A DNA stretch of 64,000 bases from Streptomyces albireticuli. Its GTDB lineage: Bacteria; Actinomycetota; Actinomycetes; Streptomycetales; Streptomycetaceae. The stretch spans positions 7,588,501 through 7,652,500 of the forward strand of contig NZ_CP021744.1 of the NCBI RefSeq assembly GCF_002192455.1, in the 5' to 3' direction. Position numbers and translations under genes: made by a program. Of the stretch, positions 14,843-52,419 are shown piece by piece. The notes below the pieces were generated by a model, which searched no databases, was not told the origin of the DNA, and saw only the letters and a list, made by a program, of their open reading frames with translations. Positions within the stretch are counted from its first letter, which is position 1; each line of letters opens with the position of its first letter.

Positions 14843-14853
14843 CCGATCCGGCA

Positions 14854-14909
14854 GGCACGACGAAGCGGCCCGCACCGGGAACATCCGGTGCGGGCCGCTT
14901 CGTCGTGCC
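14854..14909. terminator. Bidirectional terminator, 25-bp perfect stem
   Basis: Arms at 14854-14878 and 14885-14909 are perfect reverse complements around a 6-base loop. It starts 12 bases after the PKS stop and lies 27 bases before the end of the convergent ABC permease gene, so it can end transcription from both sides. Confidence 0.85.
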
Positions 14910-14936
14910 GGGCGGGAAGAGAGGGGATCAGCCGCC

Positions 14937-15794: not shown

Positions 15795-15885
15795 AGGGTC
15801 TCCACGATCTGCGCGATGAGCGATATGCGTGAGCGATTCACAGGAATGGTGTGTGCCCGCGGGGTGGCCGCGGGGCGGGGGAGGC

Positions 15886-16869: not shown

Positions 16870-17040
16870 GGCTGTTCTCCCGCAGATGAGTGTTCCGAGT
16901 GCCGCGCGGGAAGGTTCCGGCGGCGGTGGTATCGACTGCGAGCCCTGCGCGAGGGGTGTGCCGAGCCACTGGCCGTACACGAAGGGTCCCGGGGCTCGCC
17001 CAGCTGTGGTGCGGGGTCGGCGGACGCCGGCCGCTCCGGC

Positions 17041-17070
17041 GGGTGAGGGGGCCCGCGGGCCCCCTCACCC
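17041..17070. terminator. Palindromic terminator after the loading PKS gene
   Basis: A 30-base perfect palindrome (arms 17041-17055 and 17056-17070) begins 7 bases beyond the PKS stop. In RNA it would fold into a GC-rich hairpin. It separates the PKS operon from the ABC exporter genes downstream. Confidence 0.7.
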
Positions 17071-17077
17071 GCACCGG

Positions 17078-20000: not shown

Positions 20001-22240
20001 AAGGTCTCCCAGGCCGCTTCGAGGAGCAGCCGCTGCTGCGGGTCGGTCGCCGTCGCCTCCTGGTCGGAGAGGCCGAAGAACCCGGCGTCGAAGTGGCCCG
20101 CGTCGTGCAGGAAGCCGCCTTCGCGCGCGTAGGTGGTGCCGGGGCGGTCGGGGTCGTCGTCGAAGAGCCGGTCGAGGTCCCAGCCGCGGTCGGTGGGGAA
20201 CCCGGACATGGTGTCGGTGCCGTCCGCGAGCAGGTCCCACAGGGCCCGGGGGGAGTCGACGCCGCCCGGCAGGCGACAGGCCATACCGATGATCGCCACG
20301 GGTTCGGCGGAGTCCGCCCCGGCCGCCGGGGGAGCCTCCTCGGCGGTCTCCTCCTGCCCGGTCAGCACCCGGGCGACGGCCAGCGGGGTGGGGAAGTCGA
20401 AGGCCAGGGTGGCCGGGAGGGGCAGCCCGGTCTCCTCCCGCAGCAGATTGCGCAGCCGGACCGTGAGGAGGGAGTCGAGGCCGAGGCGGCGGAAGCCGGC
20501 GTCGGGGGAGAAGGGGCCGGGGGAGTCACCGCGCCCGAGGACCCTGCCGACGCAGGTGCGTACGAGCTCCAGCGCCTCTTCGGTCGAGCGGGGCGGGGCC
20601 GCGCCGGGGCGGACCGGGGCGGGCGCGGCCTCGTTCCCGGCCAGGAGCCGTTCCAGCGCTCGCCGGTCGAGTTTCCCGGCGGGGGTCAGGGGGAGCGCGC
20701 GCACACCGGCCAGCTCCAGGGGGATCTTGTGGTCGGCGACTCCCAGCCCTCGCAGGAAGGCGGTCACCTCGGTCAGCCCGATGGCGGGATCCGCGTGGTC
20801 GGTCACGACCAGGGTGGGGCACTCCCCGAGCCGGGGGTCCGGGGTGCCGACCACGGCCAGCGGGCCCAGGCCCTTGAGGCCCGCGAGCAGGCCCTGCACC
20901 TCGGCGGCGCTGAACTTCCGGCCGCCCACGTTGATCAGCTCGGTCGCCCGGCCGTGCAGGACCACCAGGCCGTCGGGGCCGACGGCCGCGAGGTCGCCGG
21001 TGCGCAGCCAGCCGTCCTCGGTGACCGCGGAGCGCGTCCGTTCCGGCTCGCGGAAGTAGCCGCGGAACAGGCCGGGACCGCGGAACTGGAGCTCGCCGGT
21101 GTCGCCCGCCGGGCACTCCGCGCCGTGCTCGTCGACGACGCGGACCCGGGAGCCGTTCACCGGCCGGCCCACGCTGCCGGCGGGGTCGCCGGGCCGGGTG
21201 CAGGTGCCGGTGCCGGCCTCGGACATCCCCCACACCACGGCCAGGCCGCAGCCGAGTACGGCCTCGACGTCCCCGGCGAGCGCGGACGGGACGGGGGCGC
21301 CCGCCGTACGCACCTGGTGGGGCCGGAAGCCCGTGGGCCCGTCCGGCCCGGCGAGCCGGGTGACGAGGTCGTGCAGCTGGGCCGGCACCGCGAAGACGAC
21401 ACCCGGATCGTGCCGCCGGGCCAGCTCCAGGAACCGGTCCGGGTCCCATCCGGTGAGCAGGACCTGGCCGCACGCGGCGAACAGCGCCGTGTGCATGGAC
21501 TGTAGGCCGAACAGGTGGGTCAGGGGGCAGGCCGTGAGGACCGGACGGCGGAAGACGTCGGAGGCCTCGGCGGTGACGGCCGCGGTGTTCGACAGCAGGC
21601 CGTCGTGGCTGTGCACGCAGAGTCCGGGCCGCGCCGAGCCGGTACCGGACGAGGGGACGAGCAGGAGGGGCATTTCGGGGGTGACGTCCACCGGCCGGGG
21701 CGTGTGGCCCGCCCAGGCCGCCGGCAGTCCGTCGAACGGGGCGATCCCCGGCTCTCCGGCCTCCGGTTCGAAGGCCCCGGTGACCAGTACGGACCGCAGC
21801 GACGGCACGTCCCGGAGGAGCGCGCGGGCCGCTTCCGGCGCCGTGCCCCCGGCGGCCGACAGGACGAGGAGGACCGGCTCCGCGCGGGTCAGCAGCCCCC
21901 GGGTGTCGGCCTCCGAGGTGCCCTGGTGGACGGGCAGCAGCACGGCTCCGACGGCCGCGGCGGCCAGGTGCAGGGTCTCGAACTCCCAGCAGTTCGGCAG
22001 CCGTACCGCCACCACGTCGCCCGGTGTGACGCCCGACTCCTGGAGACCGCGCGCCAGCGCGTCGACCTCCACCCGCCACTGCCGCCAGGTCCAGGAGCGG
22101 TCCCCGTCGACGACGGCCACCGCGTCGGGGGCGGTCGCCGCGGCGGCTTCGAACACCTCGGGGAGCGTGAAGCCTCCCAGTACACCGGCTGTGTCGGCGG
22201 GCGGGTCTATCGCGTAGTCATCTGTGTGGACGGACACCAT
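17078..22240 (-). CDS. Polyene loading-type PKS: acyl ligase-ACP-KS(Ser)-AT-ACP
   Basis: About 1720 residues. An adenylating ligase fills residues 20-530 (SSGTGS loop, [18 protein letters not shown], final Lys in TPAGKLDRR). Next comes an ACP (LGLDSL, Ser codon 20471-20473), then a KS whose active-site Cys is replaced by Ser (DTASSSS, codon 19787-19789), an AT with GHSAGE (Ser codon 18419-18421) and a second ACP with TSV instead of DSL (Ser codon 17417-17419). There is no KR, DH or TE. A ligase-ACP start is the way aromatic polyenes such as candicidin (FscA) load p-aminobenzoate, so an aromatic acid starter is inferred. Starts GTG 22243, ATG 22240 and GTG 22237 are adjacent; a GGAG site sits 5 bases before 22237 and 2 before 22240, so the exact start is open. 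The KS cannot condense normally because it lacks the Cys. Confidence 0.9.
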
Positions 22241-22306
22241 CACTCCAGGAACTCAAAGGCTTTCGTCGGTTGGGGGACGCGGCCGGCGGATCGCCCGTGG
22301 CGTGCG

Positions 22307-38295: not shown

Positions 38296-39876
38296 TCAAC
38301 GGCCGCCGAGGTCGGGCAGCGGGTCGGGGGTGCGCATGTGCGGGACGGTCCACCCCTCGGTGTCGTAGTCGGACATGCACTTGTCGACGAAGTCGCACAG
38401 TTCGTCGCGGAGCCCCGTGCGGGCCGCGAACTGGTAGGTCTCGAAGCGGGTGACCTCGGGGTTGGCGGCGTGCAGGTTCTCGTAGAGCTCGTGACGGCTC
38501 GCGAATTCGCTGCCGACGCTGTCCCACACCAGCTTCATCAGTTTGACGCGCTCCTCGGACCCGATCCCGTTGGCGCCGCGCATATAGGTGTCCAGGTAGG
38601 GGCGCAGCTCGGGGGAGCGGAAGTCGTCTGCGTGCGAGGCGAGGCTGATGAGGGGGCTGGCGACGAGGCGGTTGATGAGTTCCTTGACGGTCCGGTAGGC
38701 GGTCGGGGCCAGCACGCGGTAGGCGAAGCAGGGGTGCAGATGGGGGTGGACGTACTTCTCCGCCCAGGGTTCCGTCTGTTCGGTCATGGCGGTGACCAGG
38801 GCGTGCACGGTGTGCCGCCAGGCCAGTGCCTCGCCGACGCCGGACTGCACGCCGAGGTGGACGTCGCTGCCGTTGCTGTGGACGGCCTTCAGGAGCAGGC
38901 CGCACAGGAAGTCGAGCTTGACCGACATGCGGACGGCGCTGTGGAAGAGGAACCGGGGCAGGAACCCGCTCCGGTGGGCGAATCCGCCGGCCCGGTCGAG
39001 ATCGCGGTGGATCAGTACGTGCGACCAGGGGATGAGCGCGCGGTCGAAGACGAGGAGCGCGTCGTTCTCGTCGAACCGGCTGGACAGCGGATAGTCGAAG
39101 GGGCTGCCCGCCCGGTGGGCCTGGTTCTCGTAGCTGGGACGGCAGATGATCTTGATGCCGGGGGTGTTCATCGGGGCGATGAAGGAGACGGCCTGTGCCG
39201 GGTCCTCCGGGGCCGGGCCGGTGTGGCCGACGAACGCGTACTGCGTGAGCGCCGCCCCGGTGGCCACCCCCTTCGCCCCGCTGACGACGATTCCGGCGTC
39301 CGTCTCGTCCACGGCGCGGACACAGATGCCGGTGCCCTGCCCGGGGGACGCGTGGCGGCTCACCGGAGGGTTGACCAGGGCGTGGCTCAGGAAGAGGACC
39401 TTGTTCTGGGCGCGCTCGTACCAGTCGCGGGCGTTCGCCGCGAAGGGGTCGTAGTAGTCCGGGTCGGCCCCCAGCGTGGCGAGGAAGGATGCCTTGTAGT
39501 CCGGGGTCCGGCCCATCCAGCCGTAGGTCATCCGCTGCCAGGCCGCGATGGCGTCGCGCGCGGCCCGCAGGTCCGCCGAATCGCGCGGGGCACGGAAGAA
39601 CGGGTGGGTGAAGGCGCCGCCCGAGTCGGTGTCCGAGGTGAGCACGCCCTGGGAGGAGGGGTCGTGCAGGGCGTCGTAGAGCCAGGCGAGGGACCGGCAG
39701 CTGTTGCGGAACGCCGGGTGCGCGGTGACGTCGTCGACGCGCTCGCCGTAGATCCACACCTCGCGGCCGTCGCGCAGGCTCTCCAGGTACTCCTCGCCGG
39801 TCATCGGCCGGTCGGGGGTGCGACGGCCGGTGTCCGGCCTCGGGGCTGTCGCACTGCTGACGTGCTGATCGGGCAT
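38296..39876 (-). CDS. FADH2-dependent aromatic hydroxylase, HpaB/TftD family
   Basis: 526 residues from ATG 39876 (GAGGAG 6 bases upstream), the usual size of the large component of 4-hydroxyphenylacetate 3-monooxygenase. Family features include MTGEEYLESLRDGREVWIYG near the N-terminus (seen as TGEEYLESLRDGR), VSRHASPGQGTGI, GAKGVATGAALTQYAFVG in the flavin region and YMRGANGIGSEERVKLMKL near the C-terminus (in part). Such enzymes add an ortho hydroxyl to phenols; Sam5 uses p-coumarate and SgcC a carrier-bound beta-tyrosine (known). Last gene of the aryl operon, 92 bases after the SDR. With the ammonia-lyase, an ortho-hydroxylation of a 4-hydroxyaryl group is the inferred role. Reduced flavin must come from a separate reductase, such as the one at 50010. 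Confidence 0.88.
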   Translation of the reverse strand: MPDQHVSSATAPRPDTGRRTPDRPMTGEEYLESLRDGREVWIYGERVDDVTAHPAFRNSCRSLAWLYDALHDPSSQGVLTSDTDSGGAFTHPFFRAPRDSADLRAARDAIAAWQRMTYGWMGRTPDYKASFLATLGADPDYYDPFAANARDWYERAQNKVLFLSHALVNPPVSRHASPGQGTGICVRAVDETDAGIVVSGAKGVATGAALTQYAFVGHTGPAPEDPAQAVSFIAPMNTPGIKIICRPSYENQAHRAGSPFDYPLSSRFDENDALLVFDRALIPWSHVLIHRDLDRAGGFAHRSGFLPRFLFHSAVRMSVKLDFLCGLLLKAVHSNGSDVHLGVQSGVGEALAWRHTVHALVTAMTEQTEPWAEKYVHPHLHPCFAYRVLAPTAYRTVKELINRLVASPLISLASHADDFRSPELRPYLDTYMRGANGIGSEERVKLMKLVWDSVGSEFASRHELYENLHAANPEVTRFETYQFAARTGLRDELCDFVDKCMSDYDTEGWTVPHMRTPDPLPDLGGR

Positions 39877-39968
39877 GACGCTCCTCTTGCCGGTCGTTCC
39901 GTTCCCGCGGGTTCCGCGGCTGCCGCGTGCTCGGGGCCCGGGTGCGTCCGCACCGCGGGCCCCCGGCC

Positions 39969-40739
39969 TCAGCCCGCCATGGCGCTGATGCCGCCGTCGA
40001 TGACGAAGTCGGCGCCGTTGATGTAGGCCGCGTCGTCGGAGGCGAGGAACGCCGCGAGTCTGGCCACCTCTTCGGGCTCGCCCACCCGCCCGGCCGGGAT
40101 CTTCTTCAGCAGGGCGGGTACGCCGCTGCCCGGGTCGTCGATGTGGGGTGCCGTGGCGCGGGTGCGGATCAGCCCGGGGCTGATGGAGTTGACGCGGATG
40201 CCGTGCGCGGCCCCGGCGCCGCACAGGTGGCGGGTCAGCGCGAGGACACCGCCCTTCGCCGCGCCGTGCGCGGCCTGTTGCACGAACAGCGCGCCGCGGG
40301 AGCCGGAGATGGACGCGACGTTGAGGACGACGCCACCGCCCTGGCCGACCAGGTGCGGCCAGGCGAGCTGGGTGCACAGGTACACCAGGTCGAGTTCGTT
40401 GCGGATGGTGTGGTGCCAGTCCTCCGGCCCCAGCCGGTCGAACGGGGCGTTGCGCAGCGACGAGGCGTTGTTGCACAGGACGTCGAAGCGGCCGTACTCG
40501 GCCAGCGCGAAGTCGATCCAGGCCCGGGCCCCGTCCCTGGCCGACAGGTCGACCGGGGACAGCGAGACCATGTCGCCGCCCGCCTCCTTGACCAGACGGA
40601 CGGTCTCGTCGGCGGTTTCGGGGTTGCGCCCGCAGCCGACGACCCGGGCCCCCTCCCTGGCGAACTCCAGTGCCGCCGCCCTGCCGATCCCGGTGCTGGA
40701 TCCGCTGATCAGGACGGTCTTGCGGTCAAGTCGGCCCAC
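39969..40739 (-). CDS. Short-chain dehydrogenase/reductase with His in place of catalytic Tyr
   Basis: 256 residues from GTG 40739, preceded by AAGGA; the start lies inside the end of the upstream monooxygenase gene (31-base overlap). The NAD(P) motif SGSSTGIGRAAALEF, CNNAS and the Ser in NVASISGS are present, and the C-terminal SPGLIRT and DGG are typical. The YxxxK pair reads HGAAK: the His codon is 40266-40268, exactly 13 residues after the catalytic Ser, where Tyr belongs. By operon context it would be the beta-ketoacyl-ACP reductase, but the missing Tyr leaves activity in doubt. Confidence 0.87.
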   Translation of the reverse strand: MGRLDRKTVLISGSSTGIGRAAALEFAREGARVVGCGRNPETADETVRLVKEAGGDMVSLSPVDLSARDGARAWIDFALAEYGRFDVLCNNASSLRNAPFDRLGPEDWHHTIRNELDLVYLCTQLAWPHLVGQGGGVVLNVASISGSRGALFVQQAAHGAAKGGVLALTRHLCGAGAAHGIRVNSISPGLIRTRATAPHIDDPGSGVPALLKKIPAGRVGEPEEVARLAAFLASDDAAYINGADFVIDGGISAMAG

Positions 40740-42024
40740 TGTGGTGTCCTTGAGGTGCCGGCCTCCGCGGAGGCGGAGGAGGGGATGGAGGCGGAGCCGC
40801 CCGGCGGCGTGGAACGCACCTCGGCGAGGAAGGCGGCCGTCCGCTCGGGCGCGGCGATGCTGTGCCACATGGCCGGCGGGTCGTCGAAGTTGGTGGCGAA
40901 GGCCGCGGCCACCGCGGGATCGGCGTCCGCCGCCCGGAAGAGCTCCAGGAGCTGGGGGTGGGCGGGCGCAGGAAGGCGGCCGTCCACTCCACGACGCTCT
41001 CCGCGAAGGGACGCATCCGTTCCTCGGCGGCCCGGCAGAAGGCGTCGTCGAAGGGCGGCCCGGCGGCGATCGCCTCGGCGATCTCCAGGGCGCAGTGGGA
41101 GCCCAGGTTGGCGCCCTGCGCGGTGATGGGGTCGTTGACGATCCAGGCGTCGCCCACCGCGAGCGCGTAGGTGGTGTCGGTCAGGGGCCGCCAGGCCCGG
41201 CGCACCACCGGGGTGACCCCGCCCTGCACCAGGTCGGCGGGCCGGTTCAGGCCGAAGGCCCGCTCGTCGACGCGCTCGCGCAGATCGGGCACGTAGCGGT
41301 GGAGCGCGTCGAGCACGACGGAGTGGAAGCGCCCCGGATCGGCGTCGTCGTAGGGGGTGCGGCAGAGCGGGTCGAGGGGGCCGCCGGGGACGGCCTCCAG
41401 GCCCAGTACGTCGACGTGACCGTCCGCGCAGTGGAACGGCATGCGCAGGACCTCGCCGACACCCGGCATGACGTGGAACTCGATGCTGTGGGGGACGGCT
41501 TCGCCGATGCCCCGGTACAGCCCGCCGCACAACACCCGCTGCGGGGCGTCGAACGGGGAGCGCTCGGGGTCCCGGGGGAACAGCTCCCCGGCCGCCCGGC
41601 CACCCGCGACGACGACCAGGTCGTGGTCGGCGGCGGCGTCGTGCGCCGTGCGGGCGGTGAGCTGCGTGACGAGGTGCCGGCCGCCGCGCGCGAGGTACTC
41701 CTCCACCAGCGCGGGCAGGTAGAGCCGGAAGTCGACCATGCTGTACGCGGGGTCCGGGTCGGCGCGGAAGGTCAGCGGCTCGGGGCCGTGCACCGTGACC
41801 GTCCGGGCCTCGGCCAGCGTGTCGGGCGACGCCCAGAGGTCGAGGCCGAGCAGCTCCTCGCGGTGCCGGGTGCTGCCCGAGCGCGCGACGAAGTTGAGCG
41901 CCCGGCCGTTGCGCACGGCCTCCGGCGACTTGGCCCCGAAGAGGGTGACGTCGATGTCCAGTTGCTGGAGCCGCAGCGCGAGGTGGAGGCCGGAGATGCC
42001 GTCACCGATGATGGCGATCCTCAT
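40709..42024 (-). pseudogene. Styrene-monooxygenase (StyA)-like FAD enzyme, apparent C-terminal frameshift
   Basis: The N-terminal 350 residues read cleanly: GDGISGLHLALRLQ (FAD site), DFRLYLPALVEEYL, SPFDAPQRVLCGGLYRGI and a second FAD motif around VGDAWIVNDPITAQGAN. The SPFxxPQRxLCxGL stretch is a StyA/indole-monooxygenase hallmark. After WTAAFL the frame turns to nonsense, while another frame continues with LLELFRAADADP, FATNFDDPPAMWHS and APERTAAFL, again StyA-like, to the stop at 40709. One missing G (plus strand) in the run at 40964-40966 explains this. The repaired product is about 438 residues. StyA enzymes epoxidise vinyl-arenes using FADH2 from a separate reductase. The start overlaps the ligase stop (ATGA). 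A sequencing error is likely, because the surrounding operon is intact. Confidence 0.8.
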
Positions 42025-43124
42025 GGGGTGACCGCCCGTCGGTCGGTGATCCGCCGGGGTTTGCCGGTGTCGCTGCGGTCGATGGCGTCCACGATCGTGA
42101 TCCGCCCGACGGTGACGCCGAGCTTCCGCAGCGTCTCCGCCGTCCGCCGGTGCACGAGCTGCGGCTCGCGCGGTGCCGCGACGAGCAGTTCGACGTGCTC
42201 GCCGCGGATCCGGTCGGTGACGGGCACACAGGTGAGGTCGGCGCAGGGGAGGGCGGCGCGCAGCCGCTCCTCGACCAGGTCGAGGTCGATCCTGCGGCCG
42301 TTGACCTTGATCAGCCGGTGCCGCCGGCCGTGGAAGTGGAAGCTGCGGTCGTCCAGCCGCTGGACGTAGTCGTCGGTGGTCCACTTCGTCATGGGGCGGC
42401 CTTCCGGGGTGAGGGCGAGCCGGGGGCTGGTCACCCCGAGCCGGGCGTCGGCGGGGTCGCCGGTGAAGCGGACGTCGTCCATCAGGGTCCATGGGGAAGG
42501 GCCGGCGGCCTGCTCGCGATAGGCGATGGCGCCGGTCTCGGTCGACCCGAAGAGCTCGATCAGCCGGACCCCGCCGGGTCCGGAGGCCGCGATGAACTCC
42601 CCGGCGGTCGAGGGCAGCGTGGCGGTGCTGTGCAGCACGGTGACGTGCTCGCGCCGGCCGAGCACCGACTGGTCGCGGAGCAGGACGGGGAAGGCCCACG
42701 GGATGGCCACGACCAGCCAGCGGTCCTCGTCGATGGCCGGTGTCGGCAGCCCGTAACGCGGCCAGTAGCACAGCGGGAGGCCGAGCACGGCGGGCAGCAG
42801 CGCGGTGGCGATGAGGCCGTAGAGGTGGGTGGGGGGAGCGAAGGACAGGATCGCCCGGGGACGGTCGGCACGGACCAGGTCGGCCAGCATCCCGGCCTCG
42901 GTCCACAGCTGCCGTCCGCTGTGGCACCAGGGGGCGGCCGGCCCCGTGCTGCCGGAGGTGCACAGCTCGATCACCTCCGGCAGCGCCTTCACCACCAGCT
43001 CCTCGGCGGCCTCCCGCCCGAGCCGGTCCCATCGGGTGACCGTCGGCCCCAGCGGGCCGGCCGGCCCGGCACCCAGGCTGCGGGTGAGGAGTTCCAGGGG
43101 TGCCAGCTCCTGATAACTCCCCAT
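42021..43124 (-). CDS. Short AMP-dependent acyl ligase (ANL superfamily)
   Basis: 367 residues from ATG 43124 (GAGGGA five bases upstream; a GTG at 43127 is less well placed). Adenylation motifs run in order: CTSGSTGPAAPW, FGSTETGAIAYRE, TTDDYV, GRRHRLIKVNGRRIDLDLVEERL (seen in part) and a C-terminal Lys in SDTGKP. It lacks about 100-150 residues at the N-terminus compared with typical 4-coumarate:CoA ligases. Short ligases of this kind occur in aryl-polyene clusters (known). It is coupled by overlapping start/stop codons to the KS fusion upstream and the StyA-like gene downstream, so it most likely activates the aryl acid made by the ammonia-lyase for loading onto the ACP. Confidence 0.85.
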   Translation of the reverse strand: MGSYQELAPLELLTRSLGAGPAGPLGPTVTRWDRLGREAAEELVVKALPEVIELCTSGSTGPAAPWCHSGRQLWTEAGMLADLVRADRPRAILSFAPPTHLYGLIATALLPAVLGLPLCYWPRYGLPTPAIDEDRWLVVAIPWAFPVLLRDQSVLGRREHVTVLHSTATLPSTAGEFIAASGPGGVRLIELFGSTETGAIAYREQAAGPSPWTLMDDVRFTGDPADARLGVTSPRLALTPEGRPMTKWTTDDYVQRLDDRSFHFHGRRHRLIKVNGRRIDLDLVEERLRAALPCADLTCVPVTDRIRGEHVELLVAAPREPQLVHRRTAETLRKLGVTVGRITIVDAIDRSDTGKPRRITDRRAVTP

Positions 43125-45463
43125 CACGGTCCCTCACCGGCCGGTCCGACGACGGCGGCCGCGTACGTACCACCCCAGCTGGCGGCGGTCACCAGGGCCC
43201 GGCGGCGGCCACCGGCGGGCCCGGCCGACAGATAGGCGTGCGCGCCGGGCAGCGGATCGGACGGTTCGGCCAGGTGCGGCAGCAGACCGCCGCCGCAGCC
43301 GTCGAGAGCGGCGATCAGGGACAGCAGGGCGCCGGCCGACTGACAGTGCCCGGTCGCCCCGGCGACGGCGGTGAGCCTGGTGCCGGCCGACTTGAGGCAG
43401 GACGTGAGCGCGGTGAGTTCGGCGTCGTCCACGACGGGAACGCCCCGGGCGGCGCCGTAGACGTCGACGGCCTCGGTGACCCGTGCGCCCGCCCTGTCCG
43501 GAGCGGATTCGTCCAGCGCCCGGCGCATGGCCCGGGACCACGACTCGGCGCACAGCGGGGCGTCCTCCGTCCGGCCGGGGCCCGAGGACACGGAGTGTCC
43601 GAGCAGGGTGCCGAGCTCGGTGGCACCCCTGGCGCGGGCGTGCTCGGAGGCCTCCAGGACCACGGCCGCCGCTCCGGCCGAGACGGACCCCGGGGCGGCG
43701 GTCCGGGAGTACGGCCGGCACGCACCGGGGCCGTGCAGGCCGTAGCGGCCGTAGGCCCCCGCGAGCGTGTCGGTGACGTCGTCGGCCGCGACCACGATGA
43801 CGGCGTCGGCCTGCCCCTGGCGGATCAGGTCGGCCGCGTGGCCCAGCGCGATCAGCCCCGAGGCGTCGCCGGTGGAGACGGCCGCCAGCGGGCCGCCCAG
43901 CCCCAGCTCCAGCGTGGCGTAACCCGCCGTCACACTGGAGACGATGTTCGGGGCGTGCACGGCGCTGATGTACTCCGGTCCCTCCCGTTCGACGGTCTCG
44001 TTCATCTGTTCCACGGTGCCGATCGGGCCGGCGGCGGTCGCCAGCACGATGCCGACCCGGGTGCCGTCCCGCAGGCCCGCGTCGTCCCACGCCATGCGCG
44101 CGGCGGCCACGGTCATGGCGCCGAGGCCGTCGAGCCGCGGACGGAACTTCGGGTCGATGAAATCCTTGAAGGAGTCGTGGAGGTCACGGGCGGAACGGAA
44201 GCCGTCCGGCGCCCCTCCGGGCCGCTCCCGGCGCAGCGCCGCGAGGAACGGGCGCCGCCCGGTGGCCAGCCCCGAGACCACCCCGGCACCGGTGAACGAC
44301 AGGCTTCTCCGGGGCCGGTCCTGCGGCTCCCCGCCGCTCCGGCCCAGGACCAGCGAGCAGCAGGCCCCGCCGAAGGCGATCGAATTGGACAGCGCGACCT
44401 CGATCCCGGCCCGCCGCGCGGTCCCGGGCACGACGTCCCAGGGCGGTGTGCCCTCGGCGTTGGCCGTCGGCGGGAGGAGACCGTCCCGCAGGGCCAGCGT
44501 GGTCAGCACCGCCTCCAGCGCCCCGCAGGCCCCCAGCGTGTGCCCCACCTGGGGTTTGGAGCTGCTCATCGGCGGGGGGTTCGGCCCGGTGAAGACGGCC
44601 CGCATCGCGTTGAGCTCGGCGGTGTCGTTCGCGCGGGTGCCCGTGCCGTGACCGTTGACGTAGCCGACCTCGTCCGGAGCGAGGCCCGCGCGGCCCAGTG
44701 CGCCGAACATGGCGGTCCGCAGCCCGGAGCCGTCCGGCGGCGGGGCGGTGATGTGGTAGGCGTCGCTGGTCAGGCCGTAGCCCCGGACATAGGAGAGGAT
44801 CGGCACGCCGCGCGCCCGCGCGGACCGCTCCGACTCCAGGACCAGGAACGCCACCGCCTCCCCGAGGTTCAGCCCGCTGCTGCGGGCGTAGGGCGCGGAC
44901 GGCGCGGAGTCGATCGACTTCCAGCTGGCGAACGTGGCGACAGTGGTGATGTTGAGCGCCTCGTAACCGCCCACCAGCATGACCGTGGCGCGCCCGGTGG
45001 CCACCGCGTCGTAGGCGTAGCCGATGGCGTTCGCGCTGGCGATGCACCCGGTGGCGAAGACCGCCTTGGGCCCCCGGCCGCCGAGCGCGGCGCCGAGCCG
45101 GTCGGCGCAGGTGTGCGCCGGGTGCCGGGCGGGCGCCGAGCCGTCCTCGGCCGCCCGCCGGTAGTGCGTCCAGAGTTCCTCGGAGCCGGAGTTGGTCCCG
45201 AGGGCGATGCCGATCTCGTACGGGTCGAGGGAGTCCGGGTCGAGCGCGGCGTGCCGCAGCGCACCGAGGCCCGCGCGCTCCACCAGGAGCGCGGCGGCGG
45301 GGGCGTCGGGAAGCCGCGCGGCGAAGACGTCCGCGAGGTCGGAGCAGCGTCCGACGGCCGAGGAGCCGGCGCACACGGCCTGCCAGACCTCCTCGGTCCC
45401 GACGCCCAGCCCGGAGGCCAGGTACACCCCGGTGACGGCGACCCGTCGGGGGGTCTCGCTCAT
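43124..45463 (-). CDS. Fused ketosynthase / chain-length-factor-like protein
   Basis: 779 residues, twice the size of a FabF-type KS. The first half (to about residue 400) has a full Cys-His-His set: TGCIASAN (Cys codon 45044-45046), NGHGTGTRANDT and KPQVGHTLGACG, plus GLNLGEAVAFLVLE, a form seen in KS of aryl-polyene type systems. The second half is KS-like but degenerate: Asp replaces Cys in STGDASGL (codon 43865-43867), the HGTGT region reads VYGAARG, and only one His (ATGHCQSAG) is kept. So it is a KS with a CLF-like partner in a single chain; these are normally separate proteins. It should condense ACP-bound aryl-acyl starter with malonyl-ACP. Start and stop codons overlap both neighbours by one to four bases. 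Confidence 0.87.
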   Translation of the reverse strand: MSETPRRVAVTGVYLASGLGVGTEEVWQAVCAGSSAVGRCSDLADVFAARLPDAPAAALLVERAGLGALRHAALDPDSLDPYEIGIALGTNSGSEELWTHYRRAAEDGSAPARHPAHTCADRLGAALGGRGPKAVFATGCIASANAIGYAYDAVATGRATVMLVGGYEALNITTVATFASWKSIDSAPSAPYARSSGLNLGEAVAFLVLESERSARARGVPILSYVRGYGLTSDAYHITAPPPDGSGLRTAMFGALGRAGLAPDEVGYVNGHGTGTRANDTAELNAMRAVFTGPNPPPMSSSKPQVGHTLGACGALEAVLTTLALRDGLLPPTANAEGTPPWDVVPGTARRAGIEVALSNSIAFGGACCSLVLGRSGGEPQDRPRRSLSFTGAGVVSGLATGRRPFLAALRRERPGGAPDGFRSARDLHDSFKDFIDPKFRPRLDGLGAMTVAAARMAWDDAGLRDGTRVGIVLATAAGPIGTVEQMNETVEREGPEYISAVHAPNIVSSVTAGYATLELGLGGPLAAVSTGDASGLIALGHAADLIRQGQADAVIVVAADDVTDTLAGAYGRYGLHGPGACRPYSRTAAPGSVSAGAAAVVLEASEHARARGATELGTLLGHSVSSGPGRTEDAPLCAESWSRAMRRALDESAPDRAGARVTEAVDVYGAARGVPVVDDAELTALTSCLKSAGTRLTAVAGATGHCQSAGALLSLIAALDGCGGGLLPHLAEPSDPLPGAHAYLSAGPAGGRRRALVTAASWGGTYAAAVVGPAGEGP

Positions 45464-45759
45464 CCGTCACCGCCCTCGGCCGCACCGGCGTCGGCGGGTG
45501 TGCGGACGGGGCCGGACTCCACGACCATGGCCATGATGGTGTCGATGCTCATCAGGTGGTCCGGGTCGACGGGGCGCGGCGCCAGGCGGAACGCCCGCTC
45601 CACACGGGTGAGCACTTCCAGCTGCGCCAGGCTGTCGTAGATCGCGTCCGGCAGTTCGTCCAGGGGCCGGTCGCGGGGCCACTCCGCCGCCGAGGTGTTG
45701 AGCACGGCCCCGACCGTGTCGCGGACGACGCGTTCTGCGTCGGGCAGGTCAGTGGACAC
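45460..45759 (-). CDS. Acyl carrier protein
   Basis: 99 residues from GTG 45759 (GGAGG four bases upstream). The phosphopantetheine site is IYDSLAQLEVL, with helices before and after as in discrete ACPs; the C-terminal 20 residues are Ala/Gly/Glu-rich and probably unstructured. It overlaps the ammonia-lyase end by 11 bases and the KS fusion start by 4 (ATGA). It is the likely carrier for the aryl starter and the growing chain. Confidence 0.88.
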   Translation of the reverse strand: MSTDLPDAERVVRDTVGAVLNTSAAEWPRDRPLDELPDAIYDSLAQLEVLTRVERAFRLAPRPVDPDHLMSIDTIMAMVVESGPVRTPADAGAAEGGDG

Positions 45760-47434
45760 AGTACCTCCGCGGTTGTTCGGGCAACTGGCTCTCCACGTCG
45801 GCGCCGGCGGCCCTGAGCGCCGCGGTGACCTCCCCGGACCTGATCAGGTCGACGAGCCCGGCCAGGTCTTTGTCGAGCCGGCGGTCCTGGTCGACGAAGG
45901 GGACCGCGGTGCGCACCACGTCATAGGCCGCCCGGGTCGCGGGCGCCATGCGGTCGCCGCCCCGGAGGTCCACGGCCTGGCACAGCGCGGCCAGGTCGAT
46001 GGCCGCGATGTTCTGCACCAGCTCGACGATCCGCCACGCGTCGCGGGCCGCGATGGACGCCATGCTCACCTTGTCCTGGTTGTGGGACTCCGTCGAGCGG
46101 GAGAAGGCCGTCGCCGGGGCGCTGTTCTTCAGGGCCTCGGCGGCCAGCGAGGAGGAGGCGATCTGCGCGGCCTTGAAGCCGTGGTGGAGCCCGGAGTCGT
46201 AGTCCGCGCCGTCCGTCGGACGGACGAGGTTCGCCGTCAGGCCCTGGTTGCTCTTCTCGTCGACCACCAGCGCGACCTGCCGGTCCAGCAGGTCCCCGAG
46301 GCTGGCGACGGCGAGCTTGAGGCCGTCCATCGCCTGCCCGATGTGACCGCCGTAGAAGTTGCCTCCGTGGTGGACCTCTCCGGTCTCGGGGTCGAACAGG
46401 GGGTTGTCGTTGGTGGAGTTGATCTCGGTGTCGACCCAGTCGGTGACCCAGCTCAGGGTGTCGTTGAGGACCCCTGTCACGTGGGGCGCGCAGCGTACGG
46501 AGTAGCGGTCCTGGAGACCCGTACGCAGCATCTGGTAACTGGCGCCCTTGAGCCGGGGGTTGGCGGTGACCCTGTCCCGGTGCTCGATGGCGAGGTTCGA
46601 GCCCTTCAGCAGGTGATGGATCCTCGCCGCGCTGGTCCGCTGCCCCGGGTGCGGTTTGTGCGTGTGGAGGAACGGCTCGAAGGGCCCGGCGCTGGCCTGG
46701 AGGGCCTCGACCGCGAACGCCGTGCACAGGTCCGCGATCGCGGACAGGTCACGCGCGGCGCGGACGGCGGCGACCGCGTAGCCACTCATGAAGGAGGTGC
46801 CGTTGATGAGCGCGAGCCCCTCCTTCGGCGCGAGCTCCACCGGCGTGAGCCCGGCGTCGTGCAGCGCGGAGGCGGCGGAGCGCGTCGTGCCCCGGTGCAG
46901 CACCGTGCCGTTGCCGGTGAGCATGTCGGCGAGATAGGCCAGCGGGACGAGGTCACCACTGGCGCCGACGGAGCCCCGCTCCGGGATCAGCGGCAGGATG
47001 TCCTCGCGCAGGCAGTCCGCCAGGAGCTGCACCAGGGACACCCGCACCCCGGAGTACCCGCGGGCCAGGCAGTTGGCCCGGATCAGCATGGTCGCCCGGG
47101 TCACCTCGGGCGGCGCCGGATCGCCGCTGCCGGCCAGATGGCCCGAGATGAGATTGCGTTGCAGAGTGGCCGCCTTCGCCGGCCCGATGTGCCGCCCGCA
47201 GCTGTCGCCGAACCCGGTGGTCACGCCGTAGACCGGCTGACCGGAGGCGACGAGCGCGTCCTTGGCCCGCTGGGCGGCGGCCATGCGCGCGCAGGCGTCG
47301 CCGTCGAGGCGGATTTCCCATTTCTCAGGGCGCCGCGCGAAGTCCGCGACTTCTTCGGCGCGCAATGCATCTGATCCCAGTACCAGGGCCGTGCTGGTTT
47401 CCTCGGCCTGCGGCACTGTACGTGTAAGCGCCAA
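45749..47434 (-). CDS. MIO-containing aromatic amino acid ammonia-lyase (TAL/PAL/HAL family)
   Basis: 561 residues from TTG 47434, chosen because GAGGGGG stands 6 bases upstream; open frame continues to 47578 but without such a site. YGVTTGFGDS and the Ala-Ser-Gly triad that cyclises to MIO (GSVGASGDLVPLAYLA, near 46965) are intact, as are INGTSFMSG and STNDNPLFDPETG. The pair that tunes substrate choice reads Gly-His (LISGHLAG), unlike the His-Leu of Rhodobacter TAL and nearer to the Ser-His of histidine ammonia-lyases, so tyrosine, phenylalanine or histidine cannot be picked from this alone. First gene of the operon; with the HpaB-type hydroxylase, tyrosine to p-coumarate is the favoured reaction (inference). 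An aminomutase of the same fold is the alternative. Confidence 0.88.
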   Translation of the reverse strand: MALTRTVPQAEETSTALVLGSDALRAEEVADFARRPEKWEIRLDGDACARMAAAQRAKDALVASGQPVYGVTTGFGDSCGRHIGPAKAATLQRNLISGHLAGSGDPAPPEVTRATMLIRANCLARGYSGVRVSLVQLLADCLREDILPLIPERGSVGASGDLVPLAYLADMLTGNGTVLHRGTTRSAASALHDAGLTPVELAPKEGLALINGTSFMSGYAVAAVRAARDLSAIADLCTAFAVEALQASAGPFEPFLHTHKPHPGQRTSAARIHHLLKGSNLAIEHRDRVTANPRLKGASYQMLRTGLQDRYSVRCAPHVTGVLNDTLSWVTDWVDTEINSTNDNPLFDPETGEVHHGGNFYGGHIGQAMDGLKLAVASLGDLLDRQVALVVDEKSNQGLTANLVRPTDGADYDSGLHHGFKAAQIASSSLAAEALKNSAPATAFSRSTESHNQDKVSMASIAARDAWRIVELVQNIAAIDLAALCQAVDLRGGDRMAPATRAAYDVVRTAVPFVDQDRRLDKDLAGLVDLIRSGEVTAALRAAGADVESQLPEQPRRYCVH

Positions 47435-47733
47435 CGGAGACCCCCTCGTTCGTGGTTTCCCACCCACAACGATCGTAGGCTGCTGTCCCATCCATGAATA
47501 CGGGGTCGCGCGATATGGACCCGAACGGGGCATCTGTATGCCAATACGACGGCCTCGCTGCCAGCGGAAATGTGGCACGCCGTCATCCGACGCGTCCCTG
47601 ATGTTTACGGAGATGAATGCCTCCTGAAATTTCTGGGATTACCCGATCGGCCGAACGGCGGTACTCCGAAATCCCCCGCGAGCGGGGTTAGCATCGCAGC
47701 TCGGCCGCCGGGCGACGCGAGGGAGCACATGAC
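47435..47733. promoter_or_regulatory. Divergent promoter region of the aryl operon and a secreted-protein gene
   Basis: About 300 bases of lower GC content with no gene. On the minus strand TACGAT at 47472-47477 is a good -10, with TATTCA 17 bases before it as a weak -35; the leader to the TTG start would be about 30 bases. On the plus strand TAGCAT (47689-47694) is a possible -10 for the secreted-protein gene. A near-palindrome GGGATTACCC (47635-47644) could be an operator. No regulator gene lies next to the operon. Confidence 0.4.
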
Positions 47734-49743
47734 ATGGCAGTGGACCCCCCACCACCGGCCACGGCCCGCCGGCCGGTCCGGCGCCGCGTCCTGGGGCTCG
47801 GCGCCGCCCTGGGCGGAGCCCTCTTCCTCCCCGCCGCCGCGCCCCTCACGACCAGGGACGACCGTGCGGCACCCCCGCCCGAGCCGTCCCTCACCGTGCG
47901 CAAGGGCCGCACCGTCGTCCTCAAGCGCACCACACGGCTGAACACCCTCACCGTCGAACCCGGCGGCACGCTCGCCGCCCCCGCCGGCAAGGCCCTGACC
48001 CTCACCGTGGACGGGACCGAGACCGGGGCGGCGCTGACCCACGCCGAGACCGTCCGGATCTCCCCGGGCACCTACCGCGGCGATGTGGTGGTCACGGTCT
48101 GCGACCCCCACACGGTCCACTTCAAGGGCCTGGTCTTCGCCCTCCGGCAAGCGCTGTTCGTCGGCGCCCGCGGACCGGACGACTCCCGTTCCGTGACGGC
48201 CGCGCGGAGCGGCGGACGGGTCGGCACCTCGGCCGCCGACGGCCTGACCGTCGTCTCCACCGGCGAGGCCTTCAACGGCGTCTACGTGGCCGACGCCGCA
48301 TACCTGCTGCGCGACCCGCGCATCGAGCTGACCGGGAACGGCCGCAGCGATTTCGTCGGCTACGGCGCCGCCCTGACGGCCTCCGGCCCCCGCGGCCGGC
48401 TGGTGGCCGACGGGGCCCGCATCGACTGCCGCGGTGTGATGCGCACCGCCGTCGTCGCCCTCGGCGGCGCCACGGTCGTGGTCAAGAACTCCCGGCTGCA
48501 CACGGCCAACGGCGTCCTGCCCGACGAGTACATCCCCAACGTCAACCCCCGGTACATGCGCACCGCGCCCTGGGTCCTCGGCCTCTCCGGCAACGTGCGC
48601 GCCACCAATCTCTCCGGCAAGGACACCACCACCGTCTACCTCGCCTCCACCCTCTCCTCGGAGAGCTGGGGCGTGCTCTCCTCCGAGACCAGCGGCGACG
48701 CCTTCCCCTTCGGGCCCATGAGCGGCGACGGGTCCTCCGCCGACATCAGCGGCGACAAGTGCCGGCTGGCGGCCGTCAACAGCCGGATCACGGTCGCCGG
48801 TGACGGCTACGGCTCGTACGTCGTCGACAACGTCACCCAGCACTTCCTCGGCTGCGAGTTCGACGTCACGGCCTATGTCGGCATCATCCGCAGCGGCGCC
48901 CTGCACTACGGCGACAGCACCTCACAGGCCGTACGGCGGCTGGACGCCGAATGGAACCTGGGCCTGAGCGCGAGCGATCTGACGGACCTCACCCCGCGCG
49001 CCTGCGCACTCCGCTCCCACCGCTTCGGGCTGATGTGGCACGGCCCGGGGTCGGTGCGCATCGACGGTGGCACCGTCCTCCGCACCACGGAGACGACGTT
49101 CCTCGTCAAGGGCCAGCCGGCGCGGCTCGACGTCGACGGATCCGACGGCGCGCGGCTGCTGCCCGGCAACGGCGTCCTGCTCCAGCTGATGGACGACGAC
49201 GACCCCTGTCCGACGCACGCGGACGGCTGGGGCGTCGCCGAAGGCGTCTTCCACGAGCCGACACCCGCGCCCCAGCGCATGCCGGACTTCGACACCACCG
49301 TCGCGCACCCCATGGACGCCATGGCCGAGTTCGCCGACATGGATCTGACCGGTGACGTCTTCAACGGATTCCGCGGCGGAACCGGCCCCGCCCACGGCCT
49401 GAACCTCTCCCTGAACCTCACCCGCTGCCGCCTCACCGGCGCCGTCTCGGCCACCACCGTCAAGCACCGGGTGAGCACCATCGGCATCTCCCGCTACCGG
49501 GAGCTCGGCGTCGTCACCAACACCCCGTCCGCCGTGGTGAACAACGGAGTGATCCTCACCCTCGGCCCCGGAAGCCACTGGATCCCCACCGGCACCTGCT
49601 ACCTGTCGGCCCTCCGCCTGGACCGCGGCGCGCGGGTGACCGCGCCCAGGGGCCGCGACCTGGAGATGACCGTCGACGGGCGTACGGTCCGGCCGGAGCC
49701 CGGGGACAGCTGGTCCGGCGCGATCGTGATCCGCGTCGTATGA
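47734..49743 (+). CDS. Tat-secreted beta-rich protein, possible right-handed beta-helix
   Basis: 669 residues. A twin-arginine leader (RRRVLGLGAALGGALFLPAAA) ends near residue 38, with cleavage likely after an Ala-rich stretch. The rest alternates short hydrophobic strands and turns (TLTVEPGGTL, GLTVVSTGEAFNGVYV, VDGSDGARLLPGN) in the manner of beta-helix surface proteins and pectate-lyase-like folds. No catalytic site is recognised. GAGGGAG lies 8 bases before the ATG. It is divergent from the aryl operon, so shared control is possible; a role in that pathway is not shown. Confidence 0.75.
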   Translation: MAVDPPPPATARRPVRRRVLGLGAALGGALFLPAAAPLTTRDDRAAPPPEPSLTVRKGRTVVLKRTTRLNTLTVEPGGTLAAPAGKALTLTVDGTETGAALTHAETVRISPGTYRGDVVVTVCDPHTVHFKGLVFALRQALFVGARGPDDSRSVTAARSGGRVGTSAADGLTVVSTGEAFNGVYVADAAYLLRDPRIELTGNGRSDFVGYGAALTASGPRGRLVADGARIDCRGVMRTAVVALGGATVVVKNSRLHTANGVLPDEYIPNVNPRYMRTAPWVLGLSGNVRATNLSGKDTTTVYLASTLSSESWGVLSSETSGDAFPFGPMSGDGSSADISGDKCRLAAVNSRITVAGDGYGSYVVDNVTQHFLGCEFDVTAYVGIIRSGALHYGDSTSQAVRRLDAEWNLGLSASDLTDLTPRACALRSHRFGLMWHGPGSVRIDGGTVLRTTETTFLVKGQPARLDVDGSDGARLLPGNGVLLQLMDDDDPCPTHADGWGVAEGVFHEPTPAPQRMPDFDTTVAHPMDAMAEFADMDLTGDVFNGFRGGTGPAHGLNLSLNLTRCRLTGAVSATTVKHRVSTIGISRYRELGVVTNTPSAVVNNGVILTLGPGSHWIPTGTCYLSALRLDRGARVTAPRGRDLEMTVDGRTVRPEPGDSWSGAIVIRVV

Positions 49744-49755
49744 GCCGGCGACGGG

Positions 49756-49786
49756 GCACGGGCGCCGCCGCACCCGTGACCCGTGC
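49756..49786 (+). terminator. Possible terminator after the beta-rich protein gene
   Basis: GCACGGG (49756-49762) pairs with CCCGTGC (49780-49786) across a 17-base loop, with CGGGG/CCCCG flanks nearby that could extend it around a bulge. Starts 12 bases after the stop codon. Confidence 0.35.
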
Positions 49787-50009
49787 GAAGCCCCGCCGAC
49801 GAGCCGTGGAGGCACCGGTGACGGGGCCGCCCCGCCGCTGATCCGAGGCGAGCCGTCCCGACGCACCGTGGCGGGCACGGCGTGCCGGTCGGCGTCGAAG
49901 GCGGCTCCCACGGATGTGGCGGACGGCCGGCCCGGCGGCGCGGAGACCGGCCCCCGCGACCGATGTTCCCGCTTGCCGGCCAGGGGCCTGTGCGCGCCTC
50001 AGGGCCCGG

Positions 50010-50558
50010 TCACGCCCGGAGCCGGGAGGCCGGCGAATCGTCGCCGGTGAGGTTGCTGATCTTGTGATAGCGGCCTTGATAACTGAGCAACGGGCGCGCC
50101 GACGGGCTCACCCTGCACGCGGTGACCCAGCCGATGGTGAGGAGGTGGTCGCCGTTCGGCACCTGCCCCTCCGTGCGGCACTCGAACACGCAGGCCGCGT
50201 CCGCCAGGACCGGGTGGCCCCCGTTCGCGGCGGGGTGCCAGCCGATGCCGTGGAACTCGTCGGTCATGCCGAAGCGTTCGGCCGAGGCGAACCACCGGGC
50301 GATCGCCGACTGGTGCTCCTGGAGCAGATTGACGACGAACCCACCGGATTCGGCGATCGCGGCGGTGAGGCGGCTGCCCTGTCGCAGACACACCGAAAGC
50401 AGCTCGGGGTCCATGGATACGGAGGTGACCGACCCGGCGGTCATGCCGGCCGGGCCGGTCCCGGTTCTGACCGTCAGGACGGCGACGGCGGTGGGCAGAT
50501 GCCGCATCGCCGCCCGGAATCCCTGGTCCTTCATTCCGGAGGTCTCAGTGTGTTTCAT
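50010..50558 (-). CDS. Flavin reductase (HpaC/StyB-like)
   Basis: 182 residues from ATG 50558 (GAGGA 8 bases upstream). The flavin-reductase split barrel is recognisable: FRAAMRHLPTAVAVLT, GMTAGSVTSVSMDPELLSVCL (seen in part as TAGSVTSVSMDP), FVVNLLQEHQ and the late RYHKI. Proteins of this kind reduce FAD or FMN with NAD(P)H and hand the reduced flavin to two-component monooxygenases. The window encodes two that need it, the HpaB-type and the StyA-like enzymes, in the operon whose first gene starts 2.6 kb away on the same strand. It is divergent from an MFS exporter gene. Confidence 0.88.
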   Translation of the reverse strand: MKHTETSGMKDQGFRAAMRHLPTAVAVLTVRTGTGPAGMTAGSVTSVSMDPELLSVCLRQGSRLTAAIAESGGFVVNLLQEHQSAIARWFASAERFGMTDEFHGIGWHPAANGGHPVLADAACVFECRTEGQVPNGDHLLTIGWVTACRVSPSARPLLSYQGRYHKISNLTGDDSPASRLRA

Positions 50559-50916
50559 CGTCCCCGTCCTCACTCCTGGCCCGCGCGGATTCCCCGTCAC
50601 GGCCGAGTAAATTTGGCGACCAGCACACAGCGACCATAACGCCAAGAGGTTACTGAATTGCCGCCGTCGTCCGGAACCCCTCCAACGAGGTAAAAAGGAT
50701 CCGGGGGTTATCGGACGATCGGTTGAACGAGTGTCATGACCATCGTTCTTCGGGAACTCGACTTCGGGTCCGGGCGAAACTCAATTATGCTGCTGGCCGC
50801 GGCATTTCGCGCTTCGGCCGCCTTCTGTTGCCTTCCGCCCCCGACGGGTCCTGGCCCGCCACTTTCCGTGCGGGGCCGTCAGTGAGCCACCAGCGCCATT
50901 CCGGGAGACCGCCACG
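50559..50916. other. Divergent region between flavin reductase and MFS exporter genes
   Basis: 358 bases, relatively AT-rich in the middle (around 50610-50790), no gene. Two CTTCGGG copies (50748-50754 and 50762-50768) are 14 bases apart, and TATGCT near 50786 could be a -10 for the exporter. None of this is strong enough to name a promoter. Confidence 0.5.
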
Positions 50917-52419
50917 ATGCCTCCGCGCCACACCACCCCCGTGCCCGGGCTCCGGAGCGGAGCGACGGCACCGCGTCGCCGCTGGTGGATCCTGGGCGTC
51001 CTGAGCACGGCGCAGCTGATGGTGGTCCTCGACGGCACCATCATGAACATCGCGCTGCCCTCGGCCCAGGCCGACCTGGGGTTCCCCGACGGCCGGCGGC
51101 AGTGGGTCGTCACCTCCTACGCGCTCGCCTTCGGCAGCCTCCTGCTGCTCGGGGGGCGCGTCGCCGACCTGTTCGGCCGCCGCGCCACGTTCCTCGTCGG
51201 CCTCGCGGGCTTCGCCGGGACCTCCGCCCTCGCGGGCATGGCCGACGGTTTCGGGATGCTGGTGGGGGCGCGCGCCGGACAGGGGCTGTCCAGCGCGCTC
51301 CTGGCGCCCGCCGCGCTCTCGCTCGTCGGCATCACGTTCACCGACGCCAAGGAGCGGGCCACCGCCTTCGGCGTGTGGGGCGCGGCGGCCGGCGCCGGCG
51401 GCGCGGTGGGGATGCCGCTCGGCGGCGTCCTCACGGAGTACCTGAGCTGGCGCTGGGCCATGTACATGAACACCTTGGCCGCGGTCCTCGCCTTCGCCGC
51501 CGGGATCCTCCTCCTCGCCCCCGCCCCCCGCGCCCGGACGTCCCGCCTCGACGTGCCCGGCACGGTGCTCGTCGGCTCCGGGCTGTTCTGTCTCGTCTAC
51601 GGGTTCGCCGCCGCCGAGAACCACCCGTGGAGTTCCGTCGCCACCTGGGGATTCCTCGCCGCGGCGGCCGCCCTGCTCGTGGCGTTCACCTGGTGGCAGA
51701 CCAGGGCGGCGCACCCGCTGCTGCCGCTGCACATCGTCCTGGACCGCGACCGCGGGGCCTCCCTGATCGCCCTGTTCCAGGCGAGTTCGGCGGTCTTCGG
51801 CACCTTCCTGTTCGCCACCTACTACCTTCAGCACTCCCTGGGGTACGGCCCGGCCGCGACCGGGCTCGCCTACCTCCCGATGATCGGCGGCCTCATCGGC
51901 ACCTCGCCCCTGGCCACCAACGTGCTCCTGCCCCGGTTCGGCCCCAAGACCGTGATCGCGGCGGGCGCGGCGTCGGCCGCGGGCGGACTCGCCCTGCTGG
52001 CCACCCTCGGCCTCGACAGCGCCTACGCCACCGCCGTCCTCCCCGCCCTCGTCCTCACCGGCGCCGGCCTCGGGACGATCATCACAGCCACCACCAGCCT
52101 GGCCACCCTCGGCGTGGCAGCCGCCGACTCGGGCGTCGCCTCGGCCACCGTCAACGCCATGCAGTACGTGGGCGGATCGATCGGCGTCGCGCTGCTCAAC
52201 ACGGTCTCCACCACGACCACCGCCTCCTACCTGGCCGACCACGACACCCCGGGCGCCCTGACCCGCGCCCACGCCGCCCTGGCCGGCTACCACGCGGCCT
52301 TCCGCTGGCTGGCGGCCGCCTTCGTCGTCTGCCTCTTCGTGGCCGTCCCGCTGTACCGGCGGCGCGGCGCGGCACGGCAGGTGAACCGGGCGGCGGAACG
52401 GAGCACGGAGGCCGCGTAG
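50917..52419 (+). CDS. MFS drug exporter, DHA2 (14-TM) family
   Basis: 500 residues with about 14 hydrophobic segments. Motif A (GGRVADLFGRRATFL), the early LDGTIMNIALPS motif D1 and motif C (GAGGAVGMPLGG) are typical of proton-driven multidrug exporters of the EmrB/QacA group. GGGAGA lies 8 bases before the ATG. Divergent from the flavin reductase, at the edge of the aryl-pathway genes, so export of that product is a fair inference; it could equally be a general efflux pump. Confidence 0.9.
   Translation: MPPRHTTPVPGLRSGATAPRRRWWILGVLSTAQLMVVLDGTIMNIALPSAQADLGFPDGRRQWVVTSYALAFGSLLLLGGRVADLFGRRATFLVGLAGFAGTSALAGMADGFGMLVGARAGQGLSSALLAPAALSLVGITFTDAKERATAFGVWGAAAGAGGAVGMPLGGVLTEYLSWRWAMYMNTLAAVLAFAAGILLLAPAPRARTSRLDVPGTVLVGSGLFCLVYGFAAAENHPWSSVATWGFLAAAAALLVAFTWWQTRAAHPLLPLHIVLDRDRGASLIALFQASSAVFGTFLFATYYLQHSLGYGPAATGLAYLPMIGGLIGTSPLATNVLLPRFGPKTVIAAGAASAAGGLALLATLGLDSAYATAVLPALVLTGAGLGTIITATTSLATLGVAAADSGVASATVNAMQYVGGSIGVALLNTVSTTTTASYLADHDTPGALTRAHAALAGYHAAFRWLAAAFVVCLFVAVPLYRRRGAARQVNRAAERSTEAA

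Follow-up and report, generated by a model that had tools for sequence, protein, structure and literature searches.

In Bacillus subtilis, the turnagainolide type II polyketide synthase (PKS) module, encoded by tur1-tur6, has been proposed to form the diketide 3-hydroxy-5-phenylpent-4-enoyl, in which the styryl alkene remains intact (PMC12094020). It consists of an acyl-AMP (adenosine monophosphate) ligase, a lyase of the histidine ammonia-lyase (HAL) type, a FabG-type short-chain dehydrogenase/reductase (SDR), an acyl carrier protein (ACP), and separate KS-alpha and KS-beta ketosynthase (KS) subunits; it starts from an aryl acrylate and has no dehydratase (PMC12094020). Here, we describe a ten-gene cluster at positions 38296-52419 of a 64,000-nucleotide stretch of Streptomyces albireticuli DNA (the whole stretch analysed, hereafter the window; bases 7588501-7652500 of the 8.14 Mb single-contig genome), the core of which encodes the same six functions, likewise with a probable aryl-acrylate starter and without a dehydratase. 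The two loci differ in that KS and chain length factor (CLF) are fused in the window, and in the starter, which is probably tyrosine-derived here, whereas turnagainolide uses phenylalanine-derived cinnamate. In addition, the turnagainolide module feeds a nonribosomal peptide synthetase (NRPS) with a thioesterase, in place of which the window cluster has StyA-like and HpaB-type oxygenases, a flavin reductase, an exporter, and a secreted beta-strand-rich protein. No NRPS with a thioesterase was found among the ten conserved genes; therefore, only the starter-extension module is common to both systems. The turnagainolide gene table contains no StyA, HpaB, flavin reductase, or beta-rich protein (PMC12094020). 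An earlier annotation of the window from its sequence (the original prediction) had named no described cluster with this exact set, a view that held for the complete gene set but not for the six core functions: the core is a module of a known kind, and the tailoring set is new. Our literature search likewise found no described cluster with the full gene set; its coverage of subscription journals was poor, and this absence carries little weight. The missing dehydratase had been taken as a sign of unusual chain processing or of enzymes encoded elsewhere. However, since diketides of this type retain the beta-hydroxyl, the absence is no longer odd and is expected for a beta-hydroxy diketide acid.

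Other described systems share single features with the cluster. The siderochelin type II PKS (Qian 2024), as cited in PMC12094020, is described as forming a diketide from an activated starter, a likeness of description only. In flexirubin biosynthesis, a tyrosine ammonia-lyase (TAL) and a 4-coumarate-CoA (coenzyme A) ligase (FlxA, FlxY) start a KS-driven chain, as was shown biochemically (PMC3992019). However, flexirubin and aryl polyene clusters carry several KS genes with ketoreductase, dehydratase, acyltransferase, and thioesterase for the polyene, whereas the window cluster has one KS-CLF and flavin monooxygenases (PMC3992019); neither a dehydratase nor a thioesterase was found in its operon or in the conserved set. 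The avenalumic acid and p-coumaric acid type II PKSs (ava/cma) are also actinobacterial KS-CLF systems with an aryl starter. They are highly reducing and begin with 3-amino-4-hydroxybenzoate, and p-coumarate is their end product, whereas here it is the presumed starter (PMC10777205).

We propose, at about an even chance, that the cluster makes a small oxidised aryl diketide from tyrosine with one malonyl extension. The proteins were assigned by open reading frame analysis and by Pfam and NCBIfam profile searches. All nine proteins named in the original prediction were found in the families assigned to them, together with a tenth conserved gene (the secreted protein) that it had missed. The genes are as follows:

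45749-47578, minus strand: aromatic amino acid ammonia-lyase of the 4-methylideneimidazole-5-one (MIO) type, first operon gene, true start uncertain (PF00221, 1.4e-164)
45460-45759, minus strand: ACP with a DSL attachment motif, without a Pfam match
43124-45463, minus strand: fused KS-CLF of 779 amino acids, two ketoacyl-synthase units
42021-43127, minus strand: short acyl-AMP ligase of 367 residues (TIGR02372, 4-coumarate-CoA ligase, 1.9e-19, below cut-off)
40726-42024, minus strand: StyA-like Group E flavin monooxygenase (Smoa_sbd, 3.8e-26; StyA model 301 bits, cut-off 550)
39969-40742, minus strand: SDR oxidoreductase from an atypical subfamily with HxxxK for YxxxK (PF13561, 1.2e-52)
38296-39876, minus strand: HpaB-type phenol hydroxylase dependent on reduced flavin adenine dinucleotide (FADH2) (HpaB_N, 1.6e-89; HpaB, 1.4e-53; TIGR02310 605 bits, cut-off 885)
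47734-49743, plus strand: beta-strand-rich secreted protein with a twin-arginine translocation (Tat) signal, without a database match, conserved in all five clusters
50010-50567, minus strand: flavin reductase (PF01613, 5.9e-40)
50917-52419, plus strand: major facilitator superfamily (MFS) exporter of the DHA2 type (PF07690, 7.7e-41)

The minus-strand operon (38296-47578) is transcribed in the order MIO lyase, ACP, KS-CLF, AMP-ligase, StyA-like protein, SDR, and HpaB. The lyase and ACP genes overlap by 11 bp, and start-stop overlaps of about 4 bp join ACP to KS, KS to the AMP-ligase, and the AMP-ligase to StyA. The genes are thus tightly packed from the lyase through StyA, and 92 bp intervene between SDR and HpaB.

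Homologous clusters were sought by scanning bacterial genome contigs with the AMP-ligase as the query, which gave matches in Streptomyces albireticuli, S. eurocidicus, and S. griseocarneus, and a more distant one in Saccharopolyspora spinosa. All ten genes were present in the same order, at 61-96% identity, in four other Streptomyces (G051, S. albireticuli, S. eurocidicus, and S. griseocarneus), a recurrence far above chance expectation. The S. eurocidicus and S. albireticuli copies share flanking genes with the window, whereas in G051 and S. griseocarneus none of the window's other neighbours was found next to the cluster, which places the left edge at HpaB. The two-component regulators and the peptidase at 34-38 kb were considered as cluster members and rejected on the same grounds. 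Since the ten genes keep their order even in genomes without the flanking genes, they form a real, self-contained, and conserved cluster. The ratio of nonsynonymous to synonymous substitution rates (dN/dS) was below 1 for all ten genes in every comparison made, the beta-rich protein being among the least constrained (0.35-0.76). The distribution is narrow: among 199 sampled genomes of the genus, a close AMP-ligase occurred only in G051 and the genome of the window, and a distant one in two. A smaller related cluster was observed in S. spinosa (L021, 5682-13775), comprising an MIO lyase, a cytochrome P450, SDR, ACP, AMP-ligase, KS-CLF, and a UbiH-like flavin monooxygenase. There, SDR, ACP, AMP-ligase, and KS-CLF are consecutive and followed by the different flavin monooxygenase, with the lyase nearby, and the CLF part is seemingly truncated.

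The first operon gene encodes a likely TAL, to judge from its sequence. The protein contains the MIO-forming ASG triad and the catalytic Tyr motif, and is 84-96% identical across the four orthologous clusters. Its best NCBIfam model was the BagA/FevW tyrosine ammonia-lyase of bagremycin and ferroverdin biosynthesis (660 bits, under its cut-off of 1000); no further part of those pathways was found here. The HL that follows the selectivity loop fits TAL, but its His is shared with HAL. The AMP-ligase, for which the short 4-coumarate-CoA ligase (TIGR02372) was the best model, starts shortly before the TSGSTG motif and retains this motif along with FGSTETG, KVNGRR, and TGK. In at least three further actinobacterial clusters, of different composition (L028, L029, and L030), relatives of the ligase adjoin an MIO lyase, and in two more (L046 and L047) they lie near one, in one Streptomyces together with an ACP. 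The recurrence of this pairing supports action of the ligase on the lyase product. One of these loci (L047 of G017, 2264-11554) is a different cluster, which combines a lyase 53% identical to that of the window, a related AMP-ligase, and an ACP with 3-deoxy-D-arabino-heptulosonate 7-phosphate synthase and shikimate-pathway genes; it seems to raise its own supply of aromatic precursor.

The attachment Ser in the DSL motif of the ACP was invariant in six homologues. The first half of the KS-CLF aligned with FabF enzymes and had the Cys-His-His triad intact; in the second half, Asp replaces Cys and the first His is lost, which identifies it as a chain-length-factor-like partner. Judging by these residues, an active KS is fused to an inactive CLF, as originally predicted; identity among orthologues was 72-92%. 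Protein families, motifs, and conserved synteny also supported the predicted aryl-acrylate starter, its transfer to the ACP by the AMP-ligase, and its extension by the KS-CLF. Another KS-CLF, 41-44% identical, was observed in a separate type II-like cluster (L012 of G001, 10098-18146) with a GcvT-like protein, an ACP, SDRs, an acyltransferase, and an MFS pump.

The HpaB protein has both the HpaB_N and HpaB domains, and a separate flavin reductase is present, as expected of a two-component hydroxylase. The reductase (80-96% identity in the orthologous clusters) likely supplies FADH2 to both StyA and HpaB, and the prediction of two flavin monooxygenases was supported by their families, motifs, and synteny. 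The exporter was 78-92% identical in the orthologous clusters. The beta-rich protein carries an RRxFL-type Tat signal, shows 63-89% full-length identity across all five clusters, is fast evolving, and has N- and C-terminal stretches that look alike. It had no match in Pfam, NCBIfam, PADLOC, or PDB sequence searches, and its predicted structure was too poor for fold inference, with a predicted local distance difference test (pLDDT) score of 42.

In the proposed pathway, the MIO lyase would deaminate L-tyrosine to p-coumarate, which the short AMP-ligase would adenylate and load onto the ACP. The KS-CLF would then add one malonyl unit to give 5-(4-hydroxyphenyl)-3-oxopent-4-enoyl-ACP. Gene content, motifs, synteny, and selection were observed directly; these three steps we infer from the protein families and from turnagainolide; those that follow, as well as the step order, chain length, and release, are conjectural. 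The SDR would act on the 3-oxo intermediate, most simply by reducing the 3-ketone, and HpaB, with FADH2 from the flavin reductase, would turn the ring into a catechol. The StyA-like enzyme, served by the same reductase, would oxidise the styryl alkene at C4=C5; the probable product is an epoxide, which could open to a diol or a gamma-lactone. The MFS pump would export the product, and the secreted beta-rich protein would act outside the cell. The pathway would be compatible with a product such as 3-hydroxy-4,5-epoxy-5-(dihydroxyphenyl)pentanoate, or with a gamma-lactone or diol formed from that compound. We regard as possible, though doubtful, the more specific proposal of an undescribed class of catecholic diketides, derived from tyrosine and bearing an epoxide or a lactone, a proposal that unites the fused KS-CLF, a diverged StyA oxidising an ACP-bound styryl group, non-standard E-S-H-K chemistry of the SDR, and an extracellular beta-rich protein.

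Several points weigh against the oxidised-diketide reading. Neither a releasing enzyme nor a malonyl transferase was found in the cluster, and chain length is not readable from the KS-CLF sequence. In the SDR, His (H159, in HGxxK) takes the position of the catalytic Tyr and Glu that of Asn, so that the N-S-Y-K tetrad of classical SDR ketoreductases is replaced by E-S-H-K, invariant in six homologues. Since the canonical Tyr and Asn are missing, ketoreduction should not be assumed; the SDR of the original prediction is present, but the reduction ascribed to it is uncertain. Decay of the SDR specific to this cluster was considered and rejected: eight further actinobacterial relatives (L052-L059), found in varied gene contexts, also carry His, which makes HxxxK a property of the subfamily. 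In this actinobacterial subfamily, HxxxK and Glu stand in place of YxxxK and Asn.

The StyA-like protein also departs from its characterised relatives. Its closest solved structure was StyA of S. vilmorinianum (PDB 9j0h, 1.5e-107), which belongs to the same family of Group E flavin monooxygenases. The window protein was mapped onto the Pseudomonas enzyme through an ungapped alignment over residues 2-104 and compared at fingerprint positions taken from the literature. Only two of the six positions of the styrene-monooxygenase fingerprint (N46-V48-H50-Y73-H76-S96) were retained, as N44 and V46; R48, A71, R74, and Y94 replace the others (H50R, Y73A, H76R, and S96Y) and are invariant in five orthologues. 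The indole-monooxygenase fingerprint (S46-Q48-M50-V/I73-I76-A96) was matched at none of its six positions. On these residues, we assign the protein to a diverged lineage of Group E. Oxidation of a styryl group by such an enzyme is reasonable; the alkene epoxidation originally predicted is plausible, but is weakened by the partial fingerprint. One may speculate that the new Arg residues suit a charged or carrier-bound substrate. In addition, compared with four intact orthologues, the window StyA has a one-base deletion within a run rich in C near 40955 (40940-40960), which puts the last ~50 residues out of frame; the remainder in the orthologue frame is present downstream. The deletion may reflect an error in sequencing or a genuine lesion, and unless it is the former, the StyA of this strain may be impaired. 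The predicted structure of StyA (pLDDT 46) was of too low quality to infer a fold. StyA homologues of other Streptomyces (L048-L050) sit in unrelated gene sets; in one of them (L048 of G384, 8024-11639), two homologues lie near each other, with genes for a TauD-like dioxygenase and an MFS protein alongside.

An alternative we hold to be unlikely is repeated extension of the coumaroyl starter by the KS-CLF, which would yield a longer, aryl-polyene-like or cyclised chain. KS-CLF pairs usually iterate, flexirubin biosynthesis begins with TAL and 4-coumarate ligase, and the CLF sets the chain-length differences among highly reducing type II systems. However, the ten conserved genes include no dehydratase, cyclase, second ketosynthase, malonyl transferase, or thioesterase, and the closest matching module, that of turnagainolide, yields a diketide by a single extension. 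The original description of the PKS as iterative was not supported. It is improbable that there is no extension at all, with the KS-CLF acting as an acyltransferase that joins hydroxycinnamoyl-ACP to another molecule as an ester or amide, to be tailored by the flavin enzymes. The KS half also matched the NCBIfam model of the cispentacin acyltransferase subunit AmcF (222 bits, below the cut-off of 325), but FabF models scored higher (332 bits), and the Cys-His-His triad of a condensing KS is intact. Still less probable is a role of the operon in supplying a starter unit to the type I PKS at 1-22 kb of the window. The two are neighbours, one PKS module has an AMP-ligase-ACP-KS-acyltransferase (AT) loading layout, and the flanking genes are shared in S. 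eurocidicus and S. albireticuli; however, the ten-gene copy in G051 has no PKS within ~12 kb on either side, and the S. griseocarneus copy lacks the window's flanking genes. Degradation of a phenylpropanoid or styrene-like compound is scarcely credible: StyA and HpaB belong to families known above all from catabolism, and relatives of the SDR occur in various non-biosynthetic contexts, but ACP, KS-CLF, and exporter belong to the same conserved set, in which Pfam and NCBIfam searches found no ring-cleavage or CoA beta-oxidation genes.

The region at 1-26300 of the window encodes a modular type I PKS, two ATP-binding cassette (ABC) transporter genes, a P450, a DegT-type aminotransferase, and a glycosyltransferase; the PKS module with AMP-ligase, ACP, KS, and AT lies at 17078-22243. 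The region resembles a cluster for a glycosylated macrolide of the polyene type and is separate from the ten-gene cluster. Four Rfam matches to the ASpks antisense RNA (200-19351) are located within the coding sequence of the modular PKS; they are probably due to the conservation of KS domains and not to RNA genes.

In conclusion, the ten genes form a compact, conserved cluster with a clear chemical prediction. The proposed pathway would take the aryl-primed type II diketide module, which was recognised recently, beyond NRPS-linked peptides to oxidised small molecules that stand alone. It would also provide two enzymes with unusual active sites, namely a StyA of a non-canonical lineage and an SDR of a subfamily that lacks the Tyr and occurs in several actinobacterial families.

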